DNA of 36,556 bases from a bacterium. GTDB lineage: Bacteria; Auribacterota; UBA3054. The DNA is taken from assembly GCA_017963805.1 (NCBI GenBank), contig JAGCTE010000064.1:1-36556 (forward strand). Direction: 5' to 3'. The notes below the pieces were generated by a model. The model saw nothing but the letters and a program-made list of their open reading frames with translations. It was not told the origin of the DNA and ran no database searches. Shown in pieces: positions 9,995 to 36,432 of this stretch; the first letter of the stretch is position 1; each line of letters opens with the position of its first letter. A program made the position numbers and the translations under genes.

Positions 9995-10894
9995 TTACTC
10001 TTCCGTCTGCTTAGGTGGCAAAATATCCGGCAAAGCAGTTATAAGTTTCTGTCGCTCATTTATTGCCATAGCGAAAATAGTAAGGCGTTCCTCGTTTGAC
10101 GGCTGCCTTACCGCCAAATTCGTCAAGGCATAGTAATATTCAACGGCTGTCTGAGGGTATTTGGCGTCTATAAGCGTGGCGATCAGAGGCAAGGCCCTGG
10201 ACAACATCTTTTCCGAACCGGATCTGTTATTGTCTAACCACTCGCAGGCTCTCATCATCTTGGCCACAGGTTTGTCTTTGGAAGTTAATATTGCTGCCAG
10301 AAGGAGCTCTTCATGCTTTGTTCCGCCGGTTTTGGTATATTCCTTGATAAAGCCGTCCAACTCCCCACATTCCTTGGGAGATTCTTTCGCAAGGTCAATA
10401 AGCGGTAGGATCAAAAGATAATCTTTCGGATCGTAAAGAGCCGCTTCTTTTGCGACTTCCGCCGCATTCTTATAGCCTTTCAGACCGCTGTAACGTTTTC
10501 TCAACATCTGATAAAGCTGCTTGTAAGCTGTATATCTTTTGCCTTTCGCTCTTTCTCTATATTTGTCTAATAATGTTGTGGCTTCTTCGGCATCAGATAA
10601 TCCGTTATAATAAAGTTCCATGGCGTCCAATATGAGAGGCAGATCTTCTCCGTCTTTCATACTTACTGCCTTATCTTTTGTCTCTTCCCTTACTTTTCCT
10701 ATAAGCTTTATGGCTTTCTCCTTTTCACCGCTTTTTGCCAGCATTTCTATTTCCTGCAAGCTCATTCTGAGAGCATCGTTGCTTACGATATTCTCCGCAA
10801 CCAGCCATACGCCTCCGGAAATAGTCAGCGCTTCTGCAAAATTAGTATGCATTACAAATATAAAAACCAATATAAGCATCATTTTTATTTTCAT
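9995..10894 (-). CDS. Secreted helical protein of unknown function
   Basis: The protein has 299 residues: a signal peptide (hydrophobic 4-20, likely cleavage near residues 22-23) and then almost entirely helix-forming sequence with repeated Lys/Glu/Leu patterns resembling TPR-like solenoid units. No catalytic motif is recognisable. The ATG has GGAG about 10 bases upstream and overlaps the stop of the preceding gene by four bases (ATGA). It is the last of four secreted orphans in an AT-richer block, and converges on hydE 32 bp away with no obvious terminator between them. I do not recognise the family. Confidence 0.72.
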   Translation of the reverse strand: MKIKMMLILVFIFVMHTNFAEALTISGGVWLVAENIVSNDALRMSLQEIEMLAKSGEKEKAIKLIGKVREETKDKAVSMKDGEDLPLILDAMELYYNGLSDAEEATTLLDKYRERAKGKRYTAYKQLYQMLRKRYSGLKGYKNAAEVAKEAALYDPKDYLLILPLIDLAKESPKECGELDGFIKEYTKTGGTKHEELLLAAILTSKDKPVAKMMRACEWLDNNRSGSEKMLSRALPLIATLIDAKYPQTAVEYYYALTNLAVRQPSNEERLTIFAMAINERQKLITALPDILPPKQTEE

Positions 10895-12150
10895 TCCTCT
10901 TTCTCCTTTTCTTGCAATTTGCGAGAATCATATTTTTTATATTCCGCATCCTGTGGCGGTTTGAAAAAATTATTATTCAAGACCCTATTAGTCATAATGC
11001 TCTGCGGCAGCTGCTCGCAAGATGGCCATTTTATCGTGAGAGCGTCATAGAGGTCATCGAATTCCACTACGGAATTCTCGTTAGTCAAGGCTGATACTAT
11101 GGCGTTGTGCGTGTCGATATACTCAAGTCTGTTAGTCGCGCACCAATTCCACAGTTCCGTTTTGTCATAGCGGTAATTCATGGACCTTACGATTTCCGAC
11201 ACGTTGTAATGCGTGCTTGCAGCCGCTACCTCCTGCAAATGCCGCACGCAGTTAGTATAATCGCGCAAAGCGACGCAATAACGTGCCGCGTCATAATGCC
11301 TCATGGCTAAAACGGTGTCTCTATCCAAACTCGGCACATCTATGCTAGTCAAAGCTAACGCTGCTCTGTGGTCTCCCAAACAGGCCGCCTCTTGAGCTCC
11401 GTCTATATATGCGTAGGAAATATAGGTGAGACAGGTCGGATGTTTCGGCACTTTTATAAAATGTTCCAGCGCCTCTCTGGATACCTCGTCATATTCTTCC
11501 CTAGTCTTAAAATCTGTCCTCTTTGTAAGGCTTCTTCCCAGAAAATAATGCGCCGCGCCGCGAACGAAGCCGTCCTTGTTTTCCGGAAGAAGAAAAAAAG
11601 CCATGACAGTCACGGCTTTTTCGTAATTTCCGTTCCAATACAGCTTTTCAGCCAGCCAATAAAGTTTCCAAGGAATGCTTGATATGCCCAGCAAATCTCG
11701 ATATCTGACAACATCATTCAAACTGTCGCCAGAATCAGCCAACCTCTTCTGAAACTCTTCCAAAAGTCCCAATGACTTGATTGCCTTTTCCACTCCCAGA
11801 CCGTACGTTCCTCCCTGAGCATATCCCTTTCCCCAAGCGTTGCGTACAGAGGAAGCTATTTCTCCGTATCCCAAATCGGAAGGCGCCTGCCATCTATAGC
11901 ATTTCTCAAAAACGGCTCCATCGACCAATTTGTTGCTTATCTCTTCCTCCGCCCAAGCTAACCACCTGGCTCTGCCGTTGTAGAAACTATTACTTAACGA
12001 TTCATAAGAGAGTTCAATTCCTTCTTTTGTTTCCAAAGGGCTTCCCAAAAAGAAGTCCTTCATATACTCAAAAGAATAATGACCTACATTTTCGCCGCTT
12101 GACAAAAAAGCGTACAAAAAGACTAGCAGTATAAGTAATCTACTCTGCAC
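10891..12150 (-). CDS. Secreted TPR-like protein of unknown function
   Basis: The protein has 419 residues and starts with a short hydrophobic signal segment (3-18). The rest alternates aromatic/Ala-rich helices, for example LYWLAEKLYWNGNYEKAV and a later AAHYFLGRSL segment, that resemble TPR or Sel1-like repeats. The C-terminus is strongly charged. The start is a GTG at 12150 inside the end of the upstream gene (11-bp overlap); no good Shine-Dalgarno is seen, so translation may be coupled. No enzymatic motif is visible. It belongs to the four-gene secreted cassette and probably works with its neighbours outside the cytoplasm. Confidence 0.72.
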   Translation of the reverse strand: MQSRLLILLVFLYAFLSSGENVGHYSFEYMKDFFLGSPLETKEGIELSYESLSNSFYNGRARWLAWAEEEISNKLVDGAVFEKCYRWQAPSDLGYGEIASSVRNAWGKGYAQGGTYGLGVEKAIKSLGLLEEFQKRLADSGDSLNDVVRYRDLLGISSIPWKLYWLAEKLYWNGNYEKAVTVMAFFLLPENKDGFVRGAAHYFLGRSLTKRTDFKTREEYDEVSREALEHFIKVPKHPTCLTYISYAYIDGAQEAACLGDHRAALALTSIDVPSLDRDTVLAMRHYDAARYCVALRDYTNCVRHLQEVAAASTHYNVSEIVRSMNYRYDKTELWNWCATNRLEYIDTHNAIVSALTNENSVVEFDDLYDALTIKWPSCEQLPQSIMTNRVLNNNFFKPPQDAEYKKYDSRKLQEKEKEE

Positions 12151-13423
12151 TTGGAGTCAAAAACCTTGGATTGTAATTGGTGATATTCCGGTCGATCGAC
12201 AAAACGATCTTGTCATCGACTTCCAAGACATCGTCAGGAAGTTTGTAATACCAATATTTAGGAACCGTTGGATGGTTGGTGTAGAAGCATTTCAATTGAT
12301 CAGCGTATATCTTCATAAATCCGCGCCAAGCATCGCAAGTTCTTACAGTCATATATCCTGGAATATTAGGGTATAAGATTCCTTCAAATTCGTTCACATA
12401 ATTTGTGTCCGTGATCCTTAATTTAGCTGCTTCCAGTCCTTCGCAGGCAGGCAATTCGTATTGGCTGCCGTTCTGCTGATACCAGGCCAGATAATTCATG
12501 TTGGTGATTCCGCCTATTTCCAATTTTTCGGCCAGAGATTCCAGTACCGGTCCAAGTGTATTGTCTCCCCCTTGTATGGCGTCTTTAACGATCGGCAAAA
12601 GCGTAATTCCCATGCAGGCGATCTCATCAGCCAGCTGCTTCAAAACCGTCGGCCTAGGATTAGCTCTTGTCTGTTCATATCGCCAGCAAGCATAGAAATC
12701 ATTCCAGATGTTCGTGGCGTATTTCCTGCCGTCATACCACCAATAATAGTGGAAGTCGTATTGAGAAGGTTTTCTGCTCTGCGCTGTGGTTGCATTTCGG
12801 CTCGCCATCGACATCATTTTCCAATCACCAGATGTTTTTAATTTGAAATCATCGCATATATAACCGCCGATTGTCTCGTACAATTCAACAGCCTCTTCCT
12901 TTATTGATTCCCCATTATAGTTAAAAGCTATAGGTTCTGAATCGCCTTCATACCAGTTGCGATAAGCTTTAACAGTCTCATTCGTCCCAAACGATCCTTC
13001 CTCCAGTATTTGGAACAGTAAAGGGATTAATGTTGACGGGGGTATTGCTTTAAGATACGCATCCGCTGCCTCCGCCTCTTGTGTAAGCGTATTTATCCTT
13101 GCTTCCCAATAAGCGTTTGTTCTTTCTGATGAAGTTGGTTGGCCAGCTATTGCCAACGCGATGTCGTTGGATGAAAATCCATTCGCTAACAATAGTTTGT
13201 ATATGGCATTGGTTATTCCCTCCGCTATAACTATATTTGCCATATTTGTTTCGTCAAAACCGTCATAAACAGTGTTTAAACTATACGATGATACAGGTGG
13301 AGACGTATCATATACCGTTGGCTTTTTGGCTGCGATTCTTATTTTGTTCATTACTTCTTGTCTAAGCTCAGTGCCTAAACAACAGATACATGTTAAAACG
13401 CATAATGCTATTAGTTTTTTCAT
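12140..13423 (-). CDS. Secreted Trp/Tyr-rich protein of unknown function
   Basis: The protein has 427 residues. The N-terminus MKKLIALCVLTCICCLG is a signal peptide containing four cysteines; it lacks a clean lipoprotein box. The body is rich in Asn, Thr, Tyr and Trp, including YYWWYDGRKYATNIW, and shows no motif I can name. The ATG lies three bases after the stop of the preceding gene and is served by GAAGGAAA. Its 3' end overlaps the next gene by 11 bp. Composition (many Asn, Thr and aromatic residues) suits an extracellular protein in an AT-richer gene block. Function unknown. Confidence 0.72.
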   Translation of the reverse strand: MKKLIALCVLTCICCLGTELRQEVMNKIRIAAKKPTVYDTSPPVSSYSLNTVYDGFDETNMANIVIAEGITNAIYKLLLANGFSSNDIALAIAGQPTSSERTNAYWEARINTLTQEAEAADAYLKAIPPSTLIPLLFQILEEGSFGTNETVKAYRNWYEGDSEPIAFNYNGESIKEEAVELYETIGGYICDDFKLKTSGDWKMMSMASRNATTAQSRKPSQYDFHYYWWYDGRKYATNIWNDFYACWRYEQTRANPRPTVLKQLADEIACMGITLLPIVKDAIQGGDNTLGPVLESLAEKLEIGGITNMNYLAWYQQNGSQYELPACEGLEAAKLRITDTNYVNEFEGILYPNIPGYMTVRTCDAWRGFMKIYADQLKCFYTNHPTVPKYWYYKLPDDVLEVDDKIVLSIDRNITNYNPRFLTPSAE

Positions 13424-13426
13424 GGT

Positions 13427-15448
13427 TCATTTTCCTTCAAATTTGAAAGACATATATTTTTGTCCGTATACGGATGACTCCCCGCAAATTTGTTCTTCGC
13501 GATGGATAATAGCCTCCCAGTCGCCACATTTGCTAGCGAAAATATACCACCCAGGCGGCATATCCTTTTCTTCAACTTTTTCTTTGCCTTCTAGTGTCGA
13601 TGCGCGTCTCGCCGCATGAAAACCAGTGTAGAATGTTACTATTCTGTTTATATCATTTTGGCTGCACCATGTTAACTTTTTATTGTTCTTTTTCCAAACA
13701 TCGGAAGTAAAAAAGGCGTTAACGTCATTAAACCAGTCAAACTCATTAGTGCCATTAGAATTGAAATCATTCATCGTTAAGTAATAAGTCCAATGCGAAT
13801 TGTTGTTTGGAACAATATAATAGCGAGAATAAAAGCTTACCGCGTTTGCTTTGAAACATCCAGTATATCCAGAAATCCCAAAGCCTACTTTTATTTTTTC
13901 CACACAACCCTTAAATTCAGGGTTTTTATTTTTGAAGTAGGTTACTAGTCTGGCGATCTGATATTTTATTTTACTATTTGAAGAAAATAACAACCTAAAT
14001 CTATCGTTCTCATCATCAGCGTCAGTAGGCGGAGATATTCTTTCATGACCTATATCTTCAACCCTAAATGGATAAGGATATTTTGGATCAATATCCATAT
14101 TGTTTCTTATTTCATACTTGTTTGTATACGAAACATCTTTAAATGTTGTTAGATACGGATCAACTGAGAACGCTATGCAATTGTATGTTGGATTTTCCGG
14201 TCTTATGACGCACCATTCGCAATCAACCAGGTTTTCAAACCATCCATTAATTCTCTTTCTTGTTTCAAGATCAGGCTGAGTGGTCTCATCGCCAACAGAA
14301 CAAGTTTTATACTTTAGCGTTTTGGTGATTTTCCCAAAAGTAATCGTCAGCGTTTCATCTGAATTGTATTTTATTCCTTCAACGTATATTGTTTGTCCAT
14401 TAATGCTACTAACCGGCCAGCTTTTGGTTATAGATTTATCATTATTACCACCGCCCTGTAAAAAATCATTTTGGCTTCTATATTGACTTCTCCAAAGCCT
14501 TAGTCCTGACGGTGTCGTTATCGTAATCGGTTTGTCCAAATCATCAACTGTAAATTCGCCTTGAACAATTATGTTTATCTTTAATTCGCACAGATCATCG
14601 TCCAGTCCTCTTTTTGTGAATTCTTCTTGATCAAAATCACATTTATTATTTTCGTCATCGTCATCGATGTTGTAGTGGATATAAACCTGATGATTATCGT
14701 CCGCCGTGCTTCTGTCGTGTTCTATTATTCTTTTCCATCGTCCAAAAACATTGCGAATTGCGTTAGTTCCGCTATAGTCCCATCTTTTCGCAGTCATTGC
14801 ATATGTGTTAACATGTATCTCTGTTTGCGCTTTAAGAGGAATATCGCCAGCCTCTATATCGCAGTAGAGAGTAACATTCTGCCCGTCTGCTCTATCGAAA
14901 ATTGTTGTGAAGGTTTCAGAGTTGTTTCCGCTGCCTTGCGATTCTCCTTTGCGCCATTCGTATATGACACTTGGATTTGGGTTCCCTTCAATTGAGACCC
15001 AAGCCGTATATGTTTCTTCTATCCCGTCAAGCACTTCTGTGTTGCCATTTATTCCATAGGTTAATCTTGGACACTTCCAGGTCACATTTAAATGAGCGCT
15101 TTCGCTTTTTCTCTGATTACCATCCATATAGTACGTTTTGCACAAAATTGTTACCATCAGTTCGCCCTCACTAGTGGATGGGGCGCTTGTGAACTCGATA
15201 GTTGCATGCTTTCCTTGCGGAGTGCCTACAAAATTCGCATAAGGCGTGGATACGCTGATATCCCACTCATATTCCCCCGTCGAGGTAGCTCCAGTCAATT
15301 CCGCGGTGTATCCGCCGGAAGGGCGAATAATAGTGTCTGTGAACATTGTTGTCCCTTGTATATCCAGCTTTATCGGAACATTGGCAAAGCAGAATGAAGT
15401 TAACCCTATGACTAGGACTACGCCGATAATTATTTTTAGTTTTGACAT
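13427..15448 (-). CDS. Large secreted protein with Ig-like N-terminus and possible Cys/His C-terminal domain
   Basis: The protein has 673 residues. A signal peptide (cleavage likely after FCFA, about residue 22) is followed by two or three beta-rich segments (about 25-220) that look like Ig-like or PKD-like domains. A middle part is rich in Asp/Asn. The C-terminal region has NPTYNCIAFS near residue 420, HAARR near 610 and CGDWEAIIHRE with a final SVYGQKY. This spacing of YNCIA, HAAR, a W/SK/G segment, IxH and YG resembles the small DUF7689-type domain, interrupted here by a large insert; that assignment is from memory and tentative. A Cys/His catalytic site would be a guess. First gene of the secreted cassette; no Shine-Dalgarno is seen at the ATG. 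Confidence 0.72.
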   Translation of the reverse strand: MSKLKIIIGVVLVIGLTSFCFANVPIKLDIQGTTMFTDTIIRPSGGYTAELTGATSTGEYEWDISVSTPYANFVGTPQGKHATIEFTSAPSTSEGELMVTILCKTYYMDGNQRKSESAHLNVTWKCPRLTYGINGNTEVLDGIEETYTAWVSIEGNPNPSVIYEWRKGESQGSGNNSETFTTIFDRADGQNVTLYCDIEAGDIPLKAQTEIHVNTYAMTAKRWDYSGTNAIRNVFGRWKRIIEHDRSTADDNHQVYIHYNIDDDDENNKCDFDQEEFTKRGLDDDLCELKINIIVQGEFTVDDLDKPITITTPSGLRLWRSQYRSQNDFLQGGGNNDKSITKSWPVSSINGQTIYVEGIKYNSDETLTITFGKITKTLKYKTCSVGDETTQPDLETRKRINGWFENLVDCEWCVIRPENPTYNCIAFSVDPYLTTFKDVSYTNKYEIRNNMDIDPKYPYPFRVEDIGHERISPPTDADDENDRFRLLFSSNSKIKYQIARLVTYFKNKNPEFKGCVEKIKVGFGISGYTGCFKANAVSFYSRYYIVPNNNSHWTYYLTMNDFNSNGTNEFDWFNDVNAFFTSDVWKKNNKKLTWCSQNDINRIVTFYTGFHAARRASTLEGKEKVEEKDMPPGWYIFASKCGDWEAIIHREEQICGESSVYGQKYMSFKFEGK

Positions 15449-29044: not shown

Positions 29045-31750
29045 TTAGTTGCCCAAATTGAGCTTGCTCTTCGGGTAGGCGGTCAGCCAGAAGGTGGCGT
29101 AGACCGAGTGATCGTTGTTGTCTCTCAGACGGTAGGAAACGGACGTGTCGATGCACTTCTTCCAGTTCTTGTAGAGCGTGAACTCCATTTCCTGGAGGTC
29201 GCCTTTCTGGGCCTCGAAGCGCATGTAGCTGCCGAATCCCCATCCTCTCGTGAGCTCTCTGGCCCAGGTCTTCTGCTGCATCTCCAAGGAGAGCCAAGGC
29301 GTGAAGTCATCGAACCAGAAGCGGCCGCCCGCGGAGATAAGATTGGAGTAATCGTAGAGATAACGGTAGCTGACGTTCAGGATAAGCTCGTCTTTCCTGC
29401 CTCTCAGCCAGCGCGGCAGAGAAGGATGGGAGAGGGCTTTCTGCAAAACTCTGGTGGCGTCCATATTGGCGCCGAGGTTCGCGAACGTTATGCGTTTATA
29501 CTTGTCCATGTCCCAAAGCAGGTCGCCCTGGATGTTGAGCCAGTCGGTGGGATCGGACTGGAAAGCTAAGCCGACGGCCGTACTGGCCTGATATTCCCTG
29601 AAGGCCTTGCCTTCGGTGTATTTCCTGCGGTACTTGTAGTGATGGCGGTAATCCTGGGACTTGTAGACCTCGTCGTGATAATAGCGCTGGCTGATGAAGG
29701 CCGTGAAGTCGATAAGGTTGGCGTTGTTGCCCTTCCTTTCGATCTGGAAGGCGTTCCTGATGCCAAGGTCGGCGCCGGCCGCCAGGCCGGACTCAGTGCC
29801 GAAGGCCGCGTTGCCGAAGATCTTGCCCTTAGGCTCAATGAGGTGGCGGATCTTCTCGCTGTCGGACTGCAGATATTTCCTCATCAATTCGCCGGCGTAG
29901 GTGCCTTCAAGATTGTAGGTGCGGTGCAGCTTGAAGTTCACGTCGACGCCGCCGTAAGGCATGGCGCGGAAGAAGGCGCCCTCGTCCTGGGGACGGTAGG
30001 CGTCGATGGCCATTCTCGTGTAGCGGTTGTAATCCTGGTTCCAGTGGTTGACCGGGAAGTTGACTGTCTTGTTCCTCAGTTTAAGCCTTCTGTTGAAGCC
30101 GCCAGGCGCCGAAGGATTGATCCTGCCGCGCTTCCAGACGTAGTCGTACTCTTCGCCGTCGTTGTAGTTGTTGATGTTGCCGAAGTCCATCGCGAAGCCG
30201 ACGTACGGCTCGACGTTGAGGAAGTTGAAGTAGCGCTTCGGCATCGAGATCTTATGGTCCGTCTGGGCCTGCCACATCGTGTAGCTGGCGTGCGCGTCCT
30301 GCTTGTCGCTCTGGACGTAATGGTAATAACCCGCGGTCGTCTTGCTCTCGTAGTAAACGGGGACTTTCAGGGCCGGCAGCTCCATTATCCTGCGCTTCCT
30401 GAAGACGTGCCTGAGTTCGGGCAGCCGCTCGTAAGTCGTGTAGAAGCTGTTGACCTGCTTGACGGCGTAGAAGCTGACTTCGTTGTCCTCGCCAATGGGG
30501 ATAGTGAAGTCGAGCCAGGTGTCGCGTTGACCGTAGCGGTTGTAGTCCTCGCGGTAGAATTCATGCACGACGTCCATGTCTTTCATGACGTCGATCTGCC
30601 AGGACAGAAGCCCCCTGTTAAGCCAGCCGGCGCCCGGGCCGAAGGTCTGGACATGGTTCCAGAGGAAGCGGTAGCGGAACTGTTTTTCGTCCTTATTGTT
30701 GTGCTTGTCCTTTTCCTGGATGAAGCGGCGCGCGGTGTCGTCGATGAAGAAGGATTCCCATTCGCCGGCGATCGTCGTGACGTTCGTGAAGACGACGTTA
30801 TAAGAGCCGTCCAAACCGAAACTGACGCCGTGCTTGGAGTAGTAGCCGATGTGCGGCGTCAGCCTAAGCTCCTTGCTGTGATAGACGTCCAGCGCGAGAT
30901 CAAAGAAGCCGCCTTTCCTGGAATCGTAGCCGGCCTTGACCTGGACCGGGAAGGGATTGTCGTCCTCGCTCGGAGTGTAGGTGACCTGCGGCAGCCACAG
31001 GAAGGGCACGCCCTCGAATTTCACAAGGCAGTTCCTCGCCGTGACGCGGCTCTGCTCCATGGGATTGTTGAGGTCCGGGACCGCGACGGTGATGTCTTTC
31101 GCCTCGAAGCTGTAGAGGGCGGACTTGTATTCCGGCGGGCAGGTGGTGCAGCGGCCGTCCGTCACGTGCAGGACGTTTTCATAGGGGTCTTTGACGAGCG
31201 TCTTGCCGTAGATGTACCATTTCTTCTCGTACCAGCGGCCTTCCTCCGTGTCCTTGAAATTGCCGAAGTCAACCTTGGCGTGCGCGTTCTCGAACTGTCC
31301 GGCGTAGTTTTCCAAGTTGAAGATGACGTTTTCGCCCAAGATCTCGTAGCAGAAGGGACCCATCTCGTTGTCGACCGCGATAGAGGTCTTGTTCATCGCC
31401 TCGTAAAGGTCTTCGGGCGCTGTGTAAGTGACGCGCGTCCAGCCGGGAGAAGTCAGTATCTTCGTCACCGTGTTGTACTCGACGGAATCGGAATAGACTC
31501 TGTAGTCGCCGTAAGCCATGACAACGTTTCCTGTGGCGCGCAGGATGGTGTTGCTCATGTACGAAAACTCCAAAGCTTCGACCACCGCCTGTTCCCCTTC
31601 GGGCACGGGAGTGATGAACCAGGGTTCGGTTCCCAGGGCGAAATCAGCCGGCGCGCCATTGCCGGCTGCGTAGGCCGACTCTTCGGCGGCCATCAGCGTT
31701 AGGCAGGATAAGCCCATCGCCAAAATAAAACTCAATATGCGGTCACTCAT
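29045..31750 (-). CDS. lptD: LptD-like outer-membrane LPS-assembly protein
   Basis: The protein has 901 residues. A signal peptide (about 1-28) is followed by an OstA/LptA-like beta-jellyroll region (about 50-250: RATGNVVMAYGDYRVYSDSVEY, YGKTLVKDP) and then a long run of amphipathic beta strands with many Tyr/Trp/Arg, typical of a large barrel (about 260-901). A Cys pair in TDGRCTTCPP may form a disulfide. LptD inserts lipopolysaccharide into the outer leaflet with LptE. The residues MEQSRVTARNCLVKFEGVPF match the region before the barrel in LptD. Its promoter is 54 nt upstream (31811-31819). Presence of lptD implies an LPS-type outer membrane. Confidence 0.88.
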   Translation of the reverse strand: MSDRILSFILAMGLSCLTLMAAEESAYAAGNGAPADFALGTEPWFITPVPEGEQAVVEALEFSYMSNTILRATGNVVMAYGDYRVYSDSVEYNTVTKILTSPGWTRVTYTAPEDLYEAMNKTSIAVDNEMGPFCYEILGENVIFNLENYAGQFENAHAKVDFGNFKDTEEGRWYEKKWYIYGKTLVKDPYENVLHVTDGRCTTCPPEYKSALYSFEAKDITVAVPDLNNPMEQSRVTARNCLVKFEGVPFLWLPQVTYTPSEDDNPFPVQVKAGYDSRKGGFFDLALDVYHSKELRLTPHIGYYSKHGVSFGLDGSYNVVFTNVTTIAGEWESFFIDDTARRFIQEKDKHNNKDEKQFRYRFLWNHVQTFGPGAGWLNRGLLSWQIDVMKDMDVVHEFYREDYNRYGQRDTWLDFTIPIGEDNEVSFYAVKQVNSFYTTYERLPELRHVFRKRRIMELPALKVPVYYESKTTAGYYHYVQSDKQDAHASYTMWQAQTDHKISMPKRYFNFLNVEPYVGFAMDFGNINNYNDGEEYDYVWKRGRINPSAPGGFNRRLKLRNKTVNFPVNHWNQDYNRYTRMAIDAYRPQDEGAFFRAMPYGGVDVNFKLHRTYNLEGTYAGELMRKYLQSDSEKIRHLIEPKGKIFGNAAFGTESGLAAGADLGIRNAFQIERKGNNANLIDFTAFISQRYYHDEVYKSQDYRHHYKYRRKYTEGKAFREYQASTAVGLAFQSDPTDWLNIQGDLLWDMDKYKRITFANLGANMDATRVLQKALSHPSLPRWLRGRKDELILNVSYRYLYDYSNLISAGGRFWFDDFTPWLSLEMQQKTWARELTRGWGFGSYMRFEAQKGDLQEMEFTLYKNWKKCIDTSVSYRLRDNNDHSVYATFWLTAYPKSKLNLGN

Positions 31751-31810: not shown

Positions 31811-31839
31811 ATTCTACCATAGCGCAGGGTAAAAGTAAA
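31811..31839 (-). promoter_or_regulatory. Promoter of the lptD operon
   Basis: On the minus strand TTTACT (31839-31834) is 17 bp from TAGAAT (31816-31811), which has an extended TGG in front. The predicted transcript start is near 31804, giving a 54-nt leader before lptD. Confidence 0.6.
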
Positions 31840-31915: not shown

Positions 31916-31958
31916 TGTGGATATTTTCGTGACTTTCCTGTGGATAAGTTGTGGATAG
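31916..31958 (-). other. Cluster of three DnaA-box-like 9-mers
   Basis: TGTGGATAT (31916-31924), TGTGGATAA (31939-31947) and TGTGGATAG (31950-31958) read on the minus strand as ATATCCACA, TTATCCACA and CTATCCACA. The middle one is the perfect DnaA consensus and the others differ in the first base. All have the same orientation; the last two are 11 bp apart. They lie next to an AT-rich tract and at the point where gene direction diverges. Confidence 0.6.
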
Positions 31959-32006
31959 TTTGTTAGCAACCGGTTAATTAAGCCCCCTCCCGGGGCCCCT
32001 TCCAAA

Positions 32007-32024
32007 TGGGAAAATATTTTCCCA
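32007..32024. promoter_or_regulatory. Perfect 18-bp palindrome
   Basis: TGGGAAAATATTTTCCCA is its own reverse complement. It lies 30-50 bp upstream of the promoter of the WYL-type regulator gene, so it could be an operator for that gene, or part of a replication-origin-like region with the DnaA boxes to its left. No T-run follows on either strand to suggest a terminator. Confidence 0.5.
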
Positions 32025-32051
32025 GCAAGCCTATTGATTTTTTTTAAAATA

Positions 32052-32060
32052 TGGTAAAAT
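32052..32060 (+). promoter_or_regulatory. Extended -10 promoter of the WYL regulator
   Basis: TGGTAAAAT ends at 32060, giving a predicted start near 32067 and a leader of about 25 nt. It overlaps an in-frame ATG at 32059, which therefore cannot be the true start codon if this promoter is used. Confidence 0.5.
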
Positions 32061-32091: not shown

Positions 32092-33093
32092 ATGACAAAG
32101 AAATCAGAACGCACGAAAAAAGACGGAAACAAAATTAAGCTCCTCTACATGATGGAACTGCTGCGCAGCTCGGCGACCGAAAAGCATCCCCTTACCATGG
32201 ATGATATTACGTCCGAACTGAAAAAGCACGGCATCATGTGCGAGAGAAGGACCTTCGGCAACGACATGCGGCTCCTTATGGAGACCTTCCACGTGAAAAA
32301 GACCAAAGTCGGCCGCAAGAACGGCTACTACATCCTGAACAGAGCCCTGAACGACACCGAGATAAAGATGCTCATCGACACGGTCCAGGCCGCCTCCTTC
32401 CTCTCCGAGAGCATGACGGAGTTCTTCGTCAGGAAGCTATCCAACATCGGCGGCAAGGATCTGGCCAAGAGGGTGAAGGAAAACTACATCCTCTTCAACG
32501 TGAAGAAGCGCAACAACATTGAGATATTCGATTCCGTCGAGGCCATAAGGCTGGCGCTGACAAAAGAGAAAAAGATCTCTTTCGTTTACAACGACCTTAA
32601 CTTCAAGGGCGAGCGCGTGGCGAGGAAAGGGGGCGAAAGGTACGTCGCCACTCCCCTGACGCTCGTCATAAACGACGACAAGTACTACTGCATGTGCCGC
32701 GGCGAGAAAGACAAGATCATCAAATTCCGGGTGGACCGCATGACCAACGTCGCGGTCGAGGAGAAGCTTGCCGCCAAAAAAGAGGATCTCAAGCAAAGGA
32801 AAGACGTCGCGAAATACATGTCGGAAGTGATCAACATGTTCACGGGCGAGACCGAGAACGTGAACCTGCGCTTCCGGAAAAATCTCGCGGAAATGATCTT
32901 CGACCAGTTCGGCGAACTTGTGGAATGCAAGGAAGTAAACGAAACGGAAGCCGAGACCGTCGTGGCCGTTTCCGTTTCCACGACCTTCTTCTCCTGGCTT
33001 GCGACTTTCCAAGGCGGCATAAGGATAGCGGGCCCCATAAAGGTCGCCGCCGCCTACAAGGAGTTCCTGAAGAGCAACCTCGCGACAGTCTGA
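32092..33093 (+). CDS. WYL-domain transcriptional regulator
   Basis: The 333-residue protein has a helix-turn-helix N-terminus (about 12-85: KIKLLYMMELLRSS, LTMDDITSELKKHG, ERRTFGNDMRLLME), a WYL-type ligand-binding region (about 150-230: ISFVYNDLN, VATPLTLVINDDKYYCMCR, KFRVDRM) and a C-terminal extension (about 255-333) like WCX. Such regulators often sense nucleic acid or small ligands. I chose the ATG at 32092 (weak AGGT upstream) rather than the in-frame ATG at 32059, which lies in the -10 element. The gene is first on the plus strand after the strand switch and stands alone before the trp promoter. Confidence 0.87.
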   Translation: MTKKSERTKKDGNKIKLLYMMELLRSSATEKHPLTMDDITSELKKHGIMCERRTFGNDMRLLMETFHVKKTKVGRKNGYYILNRALNDTEIKMLIDTVQAASFLSESMTEFFVRKLSNIGGKDLAKRVKENYILFNVKKRNNIEIFDSVEAIRLALTKEKKISFVYNDLNFKGERVARKGGERYVATPLTLVINDDKYYCMCRGEKDKIIKFRVDRMTNVAVEEKLAAKKEDLKQRKDVAKYMSEVINMFTGETENVNLRFRKNLAEMIFDQFGELVECKEVNETEAETVVAVSVSTTFFSWLATFQGGIRIAGPIKVAAAYKEFLKSNLATV

Positions 33094-33342: not shown

Positions 33343-34830
33343 ATGAAACCAAGTTTTGATGAATTCGCTAAGATGGGGACAGGCAGTGAATACGTTCCTG
33401 TCTACCGCGAGTTCCTTGCCGACCTCGAGACCCCGGTCTCGGTGCTTCGGCGCTTCGCGGAGGAAAAGCACGTCTTCCTCCTTGAATCGGTGGAAGGCGG
33501 CGAGCGCTTCGGGCGCTACTCGATAATAGGCGTGAACCCTTACGGGATCTTCACGGTGGAAGACGGCCAAGCCTACCTCTCAATTCCCGGCAAGCCGAAA
33601 GAAGCGATCGGAGAAGCCGGCAAGGGCTTCTTCGCGCTGCGCGATCTTATGAAGGAAGCCCGCGCCCTGACTTATCCCGGCCTTCCTCCCCTTTTCGGGG
33701 GCGCCGTCGGCAGCCTCGACTACGAAATAGTTGGCGAATTCGAAAGGATCCCGCTGCGAAATAAAAAGGAAGACAGGCCGGAAGCGCTCTTCATGCTGAC
33801 CAGGGAGATGATCGTCTTCGATACGATGAAGCACACCGTCATGATCATAGTCTCCGTAAAAAAGAACGATTTCAGCGACAGCAAGAGCGCTTACAAGTAC
33901 GCCGAAGAAAGGATCGCCGCGATAAGGGAAAGGATGACCGCTCCGCTGCCCCAAACCGAACTGGAGCCGGAAGTCATGAGAAGCGAAGAGATAAAACTGA
34001 AGAGCAACATGACAAAGGAGGATTACTGCCGGGCGGTCGAAAAAGCCAAGGAGCTCATAGCGGAGGGCGAAGTGATCCAGGTCGTGCCGGCCCAGAAATT
34101 CTTTGCGCCCGCGCCGAAGAACTCTTTCCAGATCTACCGCGCGCTGCGCCTCATCAATCCTTCCCCTTACCTTTTCTACATCAAAACGGGCGGCCGCATC
34201 CTTATCGGCTCCTCCCCGGAAACGATGGTGAAATTGGAGAACGGCGCGGCGGCCATCCGCCCTATAGCCGGCACAAGGCCAAGGGGCGCCGATCCAAAAG
34301 AGGACGCCTTGCTGGCTGACGAGCTCTTAAAGGACGAAAAGGAGCGCGCCGAGCATTTGATGCTCGTGGACCTCGGCAGAAACGACCTCGGCCGCCTCGC
34401 CATGCCGGGCAGCGTGCAGGTCAAAAGCTTCATGCAGGTCGAGCGCTACTCGCACGTCATGCACCTCGTCTCCAATATCGAAGCGGAATTGCGGCCGAAT
34501 TACGACGCTTTCGACCTGGTCGCCAGCTCCTTCCCGGCCGGAACTCTGTCCGGCGCGCCGAAGATCAGGGCGATGGAAATTATTTCCGAGCTCGAGCCGG
34601 AAAGACGCGGCGCCTACGGCGGCGCGGTCGGCTACTTCAGCTCGACCGGCAACATGGACCTTGCCATCACGATAAGAACTTTGGAAATAAAGGACGGTAC
34701 GCTCTCCTTCGGAGTGGGGGCCGGCATCGTGGCAGATTCCGTGCCAGAAAACGAATATCAGGAAACCATAAACAAAGCCGGGGCGATCATGAAAGCGCTG
34801 CGCTTCGTTTCACAAGGGCTTTCGCTCTAA
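33343..34830 (+). CDS. trpE: Anthranilate synthase component I
   Basis: The 495-residue enzyme makes anthranilate from chorismate, using ammonia delivered by TrpG. The N-terminal feedback site is intact: LLES with RYS (FLLESVEGGERFGRYS). The chorismate-utilising core shows QVVPAQKF, LIGSSPETMVK, RPIAGTRPRG, DLGRNDLGR, VMHLVSNIE, FPAGTLSGAPK and GVGAGIVADS. Length is normal. The ATG follows an A-rich stretch with no Shine-Dalgarno, 28 bp after the attenuator T-run. First structural gene of trpEGDC; regulated by the attenuator and, by family rule, by tryptophan binding. Confidence 0.97.
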   Translation: MKPSFDEFAKMGTGSEYVPVYREFLADLETPVSVLRRFAEEKHVFLLESVEGGERFGRYSIIGVNPYGIFTVEDGQAYLSIPGKPKEAIGEAGKGFFALRDLMKEARALTYPGLPPLFGGAVGSLDYEIVGEFERIPLRNKKEDRPEALFMLTREMIVFDTMKHTVMIIVSVKKNDFSDSKSAYKYAEERIAAIRERMTAPLPQTELEPEVMRSEEIKLKSNMTKEDYCRAVEKAKELIAEGEVIQVVPAQKFFAPAPKNSFQIYRALRLINPSPYLFYIKTGGRILIGSSPETMVKLENGAAAIRPIAGTRPRGADPKEDALLADELLKDEKERAEHLMLVDLGRNDLGRLAMPGSVQVKSFMQVERYSHVMHLVSNIEAELRPNYDAFDLVASSFPAGTLSGAPKIRAMEIISELEPERRGAYGGAVGYFSSTGNMDLAITIRTLEIKDGTLSFGVGAGIVADSVPENEYQETINKAGAIMKALRFVSQGLSL

Positions 34831-34839
34831 GGAGTAATT

Positions 34840-35415
34840 ATGCTGTTCATACTCGACAACTACGATTCCTTCACTTACAACCTGGCCCAGTACTTTCAAA
34901 TGCTGGGCGAAGAAGTGGTCGTGAAACGCAACGACGAAGTGACGCCGGAGGAAGTTTTGAATTCCGGCTTATCGGGCCTTGTGCTCTCCCCCGGCCCGGG
35001 GCGCCCGGAAGCGGCCGGCATCATGCCAAGGCTCATCCCGATGCTAGGCGACCTTCCGACTTTGGGCGTCTGCCTTGGCCACCAGGCGATAGGCTACTGC
35101 TACGGAGCCGAAATAGTGCGGGCCAAGCGCCTCATGCACGGAAAGCTTTCCCCCATCACGCACAACGGGGAAGACATTTTCCAGGGCATCCCGCAGCAGA
35201 CCAAGGTCGTAAGATACCATTCCCTTGTAATAAAAAGGGAAACGCTGCCTGATTGCCTTGAAATAACGGCCGAATCCGACGACGGCGAAATTATGGGCAT
35301 CCGCCACAAGACCAAACCGATCTTCGGCATCCAGTACCATCCTGAGTCGATCCTGACGACGACCGGGAAAAGGCAGCTGAAAAACTTTTTGGAAATCATC
35401 AATAAGGAGAAATAA
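34840..35415 (+). CDS. trpG: Anthranilate synthase component II, glutamine amidotransferase
   Basis: The 191-residue class I glutaminase supplies ammonia to TrpE. DNYDSFTYNLAQYF at the start, LSPGPGRP at 49-56, nucleophile C78 in GVCLGHQ, and H167/E169 in YHPES complete the catalytic triad. It might also serve as PabA for folate synthesis, as in some bacteria, since no separate pabA is visible here; that is inference. A strong AAGGAG lies five bases before the ATG, nine bases after the trpE stop. An intact glutaminase here contrasts with the degraded one in GuaA. Confidence 0.97.
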   Translation: MLFILDNYDSFTYNLAQYFQMLGEEVVVKRNDEVTPEEVLNSGLSGLVLSPGPGRPEAAGIMPRLIPMLGDLPTLGVCLGHQAIGYCYGAEIVRAKRLMHGKLSPITHNGEDIFQGIPQQTKVVRYHSLVIKRETLPDCLEITAESDDGEIMGIRHKTKPIFGIQYHPESILTTTGKRQLKNFLEIINKEK

Positions 35416-35418
35416 GTT

Positions 35419-36432
35419 ATGCTGAACAAAGAAATAAACAAGGCCTTGGCGAGATCTAATTTCAGCGCCGGGGAAATGGAAGAGATCCTCTCGAAACTGG
35501 CTTCCAAAACGGAAAGCCCGGAACAGATGGCGGCCTTCCTGATCGCTTTGCGAATGAAGGGCGAAACGGTCGACGAGCTCGTCGGCGCGGCGCGCTTTTT
35601 GAGGCGCAAAGGGCAGTTCATCGACACCGGCGCGGCGGAAGTCATGGACATCGTGGGAACCGGCGGCGACGAATCGTATTCCTTCAACATCTCCACGACC
35701 TCCTCTTTCGTGGCGGCCGGCGCCGGCGTCGTCGTCGCCAAGCACGGCAACCGCTCCGTCTCGAGCAAGTGCGGCGCGGCGGACGTGCTCCAAAATCTGG
35801 GCTTCAACCTCGAGACTTCCCCGGAGAGCATGGAGGAATGCATCCGCGAGAACGGAATAGGCTTCCTTTTCGCGCAGCGCATGCATCCTATCCTTGGCAA
35901 CGTCGCTCCCTTGAGAAAAGCCCTGGGCGTCAGGACGATCTTCAACATGATAGGCCCGCTTACGAACCCCGCCGGCGCGACCACGCAGTTGACGGGCGTT
36001 TACGACGGCGCCATCACGGAACTGGTGGCCGGCGCTCTTCGTGAGCTCGGCGTGAAGCGCGCGATGGTCGTGCACTCCCTTGACGGCATGGACGAGATCA
36101 GCTGCAACGTCCCGACACGCGTCTCCGAACTCAAAGACGGGCTTATTAAAACTTACGACCTCGAGCCTTCGCTTTACCTCGAAAATTTCGAGGGCGGCGA
36201 AATAGGCGGCGGCACCCCGGATGTGAACGCCAAGATCCTGCTCGACGTTCTGGAGGGCAAAGATAAGGGCGCCAACCGGGCCGTGACGCTCATCAATTCC
36301 GGCGCGGCCATCATGATCTACGGCCTGGCCAAGGATCTAAGGGAAGGCGTAAAGATGGCGGAAGAGTCCATAGACAAAGGCTTGGCCAGACAGAAACTCG
36401 ACGAACTCGTAGCGGCTAGCAAAAATGCGTGA
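35419..36432 (+). CDS. trpD: Anthranilate phosphoribosyltransferase
   Basis: The 337-residue enzyme joins anthranilate and PRPP to phosphoribosyl-anthranilate. The PRPP-binding GTGGD is at 80-84, followed by FNISTTSSFVAAGAG; KHGNRSVSSKCGAAD is at 108-122. The NMIGPLTNPA segment and the VHSLDGMDE segment are also family-typical. Length matches the usual 335-345. AGGAG lies about nine bases before the ATG, three bases after trpG ends. The stop codon overlaps the trpC start by eight bases. Confidence 0.97.
   Translation: MLNKEINKALARSNFSAGEMEEILSKLASKTESPEQMAAFLIALRMKGETVDELVGAARFLRRKGQFIDTGAAEVMDIVGTGGDESYSFNISTTSSFVAAGAGVVVAKHGNRSVSSKCGAADVLQNLGFNLETSPESMEECIRENGIGFLFAQRMHPILGNVAPLRKALGVRTIFNMIGPLTNPAGATTQLTGVYDGAITELVAGALRELGVKRAMVVHSLDGMDEISCNVPTRVSELKDGLIKTYDLEPSLYLENFEGGEIGGGTPDVNAKILLDVLEGKDKGANRAVTLINSGAAIMIYGLAKDLREGVKMAEESIDKGLARQKLDELVAASKNA

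Follow-up and report, generated by a model that had tools for sequence, protein, structure and literature searches.

A putative DnaA double-box array near lptD in a ruminant-gut bacterium of the Auribacterota

The array and its neighbors

Does a cluster of DnaA boxes at a switch in gene direction mark a chromosomal origin, or a site at which DnaA acts on a neighboring gene? The question is raised by positions 31916–32060 of the window, by which we mean the whole 36,556-nucleotide stretch analyzed (contig JAGCTE010000064.1 of assembly GCA_017963805.1). There, the original prediction read three same-strand boxes within 43 bp, one of them perfect, as a possible oriC or DnaA-controlled site. The boxes are as described: all lie on the minus strand, at 31916–31924 (ATATCCACA, one mismatch to TTATNCACA), 31939–31947 (TTATCCACA, an exact match and the presumed anchor of the array), and 31950–31958 (CTATCCACA, one mismatch). 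The latter two, which share their orientation, are separated by exactly 2 bp and thus have the spacing of a “double DnaA box” (2–3 bp apart, same orientation, at least one box near-perfect). Two weak boxes on the same strand continue the 11-bp register, at 31961–31969 (TGTTAGCAA on the plus strand, 6/9) and, last and weakest, at 31972–31980 (GGTTAATTA on the plus strand, 6/9). The array is intergenic, lies outside oriC, and is kept between species, as an extra-oriC cluster would be; the box cluster that characterizes an oriC is likewise present.

Genome-wide box counts, which the original prediction had proposed as a check and which we obtained by searching across the genome contigs, revealed no enrichment of single boxes but a rare tandem arrangement. 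The window contained 10 single boxes against 12.4 expected, with seven boxes of at most one mismatch in the remaining 31.75 kb to the left of the site, and exact TTATCCACA occurred nine times in the genome against seven for the reversed control. The tandem arrangement, in contrast, was found in two places in 2.05 Mb and never for the control, and three same-strand boxes in 43 bp never arose when the intergenic region was simulated 5,000 times with a first-order Markov model.

To the left of the array, the minus-strand gene at 29045–31750 encodes a 901-aa LPS-assembly outer-membrane protein, LptD, recognized via distant homologues and fold. Its product had no direct Pfam match, and PDB sequence searches with it returned nothing useful; phylum-level homologues (E about 1e-30) match PF04453 above the cut-off. 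The best 15 Foldseek matches were all LptD (best E 1e-12), obtained with a low-confidence predicted model (mean pLDDT 36) and therefore taken as supporting evidence only. The LptD of this order is too diverged for direct Pfam recognition; its homologues in the phylum have the Chlamydia CT351 family as a further match, a hint of the PVC group. A predicted lptD promoter on the minus strand (31811–31839; −35 TTTACT at 31834–31839, 17-bp spacer, −10 TAGAAT at 31811–31816) is among the best-conserved intergenic blocks in both subclades of the genus. The array lies 77–130 bp upstream of this conserved −35. With 77 bp to the nearest box, regulation of lptD could only work from afar; the position is compatible with such control or with titration of DnaA.

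To the right, the predicted switch in gene direction is real, with only four genes beyond it: a WYL-domain regulator (PF13280, plus strand, 32092–33093), which probably starts at 32092 (the open reading frame from 32059 begins inside the −10), and trpE, trpG, and trpD (plus strand, 33343–36432), neighbors outside the element. The C/G-rich tract and the 18-bp palindrome of the original prediction are both present. The former (31982–32000) can form a hairpin and, in some relatives, has A and T runs on its flanks in a terminator-like manner; across window positions 31976–32010, the equivalents in G001 and G004 are A/T-flanked hairpins resembling a bidirectional terminator, and nothing obvious is transcribed into the hairpin. 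A search for known RNA elements gave no Rfam match. The perfect palindrome (TGGGAAAATATTTTCCCA, 32007–32024) closely precedes the WYL −35. It occurs a single time per genome, in five of the eight genus genomes, and is confined to those whose WYL gene has the window's orientation, which fits a candidate WYL operator. The AT-rich tract that had been proposed to melt (about 32032–32060) does fall within the least stable 0.1% of the window's 50-mers. It holds TTGATT at 32034–32039 and TAAAAT at 32055–32060 on the plus strand, is not kept as such where the WYL gene is inverted, and is most likely the promoter of that gene, not an obvious unwinding element.

The dnaA-dnaN locus and the probable position of the origin

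The absence of dnaA and dnaN near the site, already remarked in the original prediction, was borne out: the two genes follow each other on another contig (C22), with box clusters of their own. The dnaA-dnaN gap holds the densest boxes that we found, five in 392 bp in the window's genome (G000:C22, L001:2848–3239; also L048–L052) and six in 450 bp in G005, and is thus a region of the kind that had been named in advance as speaking against an origin at the lptD site. It also contains a very unstable AT-rich stretch and an invariant CATAATGATAATAAT that resembles DnaA-trios (PMC8287927). As plain GC skew over 36–200 kb was too noisy, we used per-gene GC3 skew and a full 542-kb contig; that the contigs derive from metagenome assemblies is a caveat. 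GC3 skew shows a replichore-type switch at dnaA-dnaN: to the right, the genes richer in G are those of the plus strand (p 0.0016 in G000, 0.021 in G005), with an opposite, non-significant tendency to the left. These features suggest that the origin of the genus is likely the dnaA-dnaN locus, and the gap together with the array upstream of dnaA looks like a bipartite origin of the B. subtilis kind (PMC5295017). No origin has been described for this lineage in the literature we found; this bipartite locus with its DnaA-trio-like motif would give its likely position. Two equal-scoring dnaA copies in G005 (G005:C4:35887 and G005:C6:26352), identical in their aligned upstream sequence, are probably an assembly duplication within one MAG.

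The equivalent of the lptD array in G005, on the 542-kb contig C1, showed no GC-skew switch. On either side of it, the minus strand carries the G-richer genes (p 6e-10 to the left, 0.035 to the right). Cumulative skew, the measure proposed with the original prediction, runs from 0 to about −6,000 with local fluctuations only and no reversal, in agreement with the lack of skew change noted at the outset. By eye, no run of three DnaA-trios follows the boxes at the lptD site. The suggestion that this site is oriC was accordingly set aside: an ordinary dnaA-dnaN origin lies on another contig, and skew passes in one direction through the site's equivalent in a relative.

Conservation of the array and its recurrence at dnaA and bamA

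Conservation of the boxes beside lptD, another check that had been suggested, was found throughout the genus: each of the eight genomes has the array next to lptD, with its register unchanged, and the box at 31939 is kept in every one, with a single change in G004. The box at 31916 aligns as TGTGGATA or TGTGGACA across a five-genome subclade and is unaligned in G005–G007. The weak register at 31961 reads TGTTGATAA in G001, G004, G005, and G006, and that at 31972 is TTGTTGATAAC-like in G005–G007. In these last three genomes, the WYL homologue is inverted and only ~50% identical, lptD is 90% identical, and the array persists as TGTGGATAAAATTGACGACATTTTGTTGATAACTTGTTGA, which ties the array to lptD or to its position and not to the WYL gene; we therefore disfavored the WYL gene as the array's owner. 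Between species that have the array, lptD differs by 2–10%, and much of the intergenic region has diverged. In order-level relatives, the array is absent upstream of lptD.

A sequence-only profile built from the lptD, bamA, and dnaA arrays (R1) found exactly three strong arrays in seven genomes, upstream of dnaA, upstream of bamA, and in the region separating lptD from the WYL gene, all at E ≤ 6e-7, the next match being at about 0.01 or above. In G001, whose assembly lacks dnaA, only those at lptD and bamA appeared. The profile also recovered arrays outside its training set, at bamA of G002, G004, and G005 and at dnaA of G003. The genome would thus hold just three strong putative DnaA-binding arrays, namely that at lptD and those preceding dnaA and bamA. 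In three order-level relatives, the best R1 matches (E about 0.01) are located immediately before dnaA, so the profile recognizes DnaA sites in another family. To avoid circularity, we built a second profile (R2) solely from dnaA arrays. Among its matches outside dnaA at E ≤ 1, 16 of 28 are the lptD and bamA arrays, each in 8/8 genomes; these matches are weak (E 3e-4 to 0.5), and the window's own array scores E 0.45, so the support rests on recurrence across genomes. Such recurrence at orthologous places would not be expected by chance.

Each of the seven genus genomes whose dnaA is assembled has the dnaA-upstream array, and all eight have the bamA-upstream array (G000:C60:136673–136715; L003, L017). 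A 2-bp double box is common to the upstream regions of lptD, dnaA, and bamA in every genus genome in which those genes are assembled. Upstream of bamA, up to five DnaA boxes including the 2-bp-spaced pair occur across the genus, and the cluster is kept although the upstream sequence differs. In several genomes, five boxes stand ahead of a conserved promoter (TTGATT-17-TASSAT), with a box-like copy 2–3 bp from the conserved −35. The orientation of the array relative to the gene is opposite at lptD and bamA.

Probable DnaA binding: regulation or titration

In E. coli, DnaA occupies nearly all of its targets pairwise, on boxes with 2 or 3 bp between them, a spacing that it needs in vivo (PMC11317965). 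At oriC, it binds cooperatively to low-affinity sites that run in the same direction, exactly 2 bp apart (PMC4451416). The lptD array shares this design of a perfect anchor, a near-perfect partner, and weaker steps, and DnaA binding is therefore likely; we rate occupancy of the array by DnaA as probable. The perfect box at 31939 and its partner 2 bp away would nucleate cooperative binding, which would extend over the weaker boxes every 11 bp (31950, 31961, and 31972) along one helix face. DnaA, probably as DnaA-ATP, could then influence the lptD promoter, as at bamA, and two outer-membrane insertion machines would thereby follow the replication-initiation cycle. The original notion of a DnaA-controlled site thus holds in part: the conserved 2-bp double box supports a putative DnaA-binding site well, whereas control of a gene is a plausible proposal.

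DnaA-box clusters outside the origin are already known, from the B. subtilis clusters, E. coli datA and DARS, and the DnaA regulon. The extra-oriC DnaA-box clusters and strong in vivo DnaA-binding regions of B. subtilis are likewise few, intergenic, composed of several boxes, and additional to a bipartite dnaA/dnaA-dnaN origin (PMC5295017, PMC4447404). Unlike them, the arrays outside the origin region number two here, share a strict 11-bp register with the dnaA array, and lie beside lptD and bamA. The E. coli double DnaA boxes (nrdA, polA, purH, rpoH, dnaA, and DARS2) are pairs 2–3 bp apart upstream of genes, as here, but neither bamA nor lptD is named in the text of that report (PMC11317965). 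The E. coli oriC arrays R5M-tau2-I1-I2 and C3-C2-I3-C1 also have same-direction sites exactly 2 bp apart (PMC4451416), whereas the lptD site lacks an unwinding element, a trio run, and a skew switch. E. coli datA, DARS1, and DARS2 are non-coding DnaA-box loci outside oriC as well (PMC5295017), from which the lptD site differs in box layout. The outer membrane goes unmentioned in a review of genes under DnaA control (PMC8203912), and the literature we found, of incomplete coverage, describes no link between DnaA and lptD or bamA. The candidate tie of DnaA to outer-membrane assembly in a ruminant-gut genus, at which the arrays hint, would be the point of interest here.

On balance, with somewhat more than even confidence, we read the site as an extra-oriC DnaA double-box array that would load a DnaA oligomer near lptD and likely influence the lptD promoter; taken by itself, control of lptD transcription by DnaA has roughly even chances. 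The main rival is a titration or reactivation site that buffers free DnaA or changes its nucleotide state, with no role in lptD expression, which we consider unlikely yet worth serious attention. It would share the anatomy of the B. subtilis clusters, few per genome and intergenic; B. subtilis without six such clusters initiates early (PMC5295017), and the array stands 77–130 bp from the lptD promoter and not on it. However, the arrays outside oriC number only two, of about three to five boxes, and would bind little DnaA. Both adjoin outer-membrane assembly genes and are kept when the other flank changes, which makes us lean toward regulation. At bamA, the boxes ahead of the promoter and the box-like copy near the −35 also favor transcriptional control.

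The remaining readings are less probable still. The 11-bp repeats might be operators of another regulator or of the divergent WYL gene, their likeness to DnaA boxes coincidental; in favor are the degenerate registers after the anchor and the WYL gene's own promoter nearby. This explanation seems quite improbable, given the same array upstream of dnaA in 7/7 genus genomes with that gene assembled, the best model matches just upstream of dnaA in another family, and an array that outlasts the WYL inversion while the palindrome, a better operator candidate for WYL, does not. A chance cluster without function is disfavored and would be very surprising: the unenriched single boxes would allow it, but the simulations never produced it, the cluster is kept across species while much intergenic sequence diverged, and it recurs in 8/8 genomes under R2, a model never shown the site. 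Most remote of all is an oriC or second active origin. The boxes, the AT-rich tract, and the divergent gene direction speak for it; a complete dnaA-dnaN origin region elsewhere (boxes, unstable AT tract, CATAATGATAATAAT, and GC3-skew switch), skew without reversal across 542 kb in G005, and the absence of the array in order-level relatives speak against it, and the unstable tract belongs to the promoter region of the WYL gene, whose inversion it does not survive as such.

It is an open question how bacteria coordinate the growth of their envelope with chromosome replication. The only strong non-origin arrays lie beside bamA and lptD, so the favored reading of the lptD array as regulatory offers a concrete and testable link between DnaA and outer-membrane assembly. 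The wider proposal, that DnaA directly controls the essential BamA and LptD machines via dedicated double-box arrays like the one at its own gene and that the replication initiator thereby sets the timing of outer-membrane growth, is possible but tentative, the outer-membrane link having been noticed after the fact.

Weaker DnaA-box clusters (TGTGGATAA...TGTTGATAA; R1 E about 0.03) occur at G005:C1:121655 and G000:C16:22023–22044. Elsewhere in the window, an AT-rich block at 9995–15448 (GC 0.38–0.48 against about 0.56 around it) carries four consecutive minus-strand open reading frames, three without a Pfam match and one with a sub-threshold match to DUF7689, and was possibly acquired.
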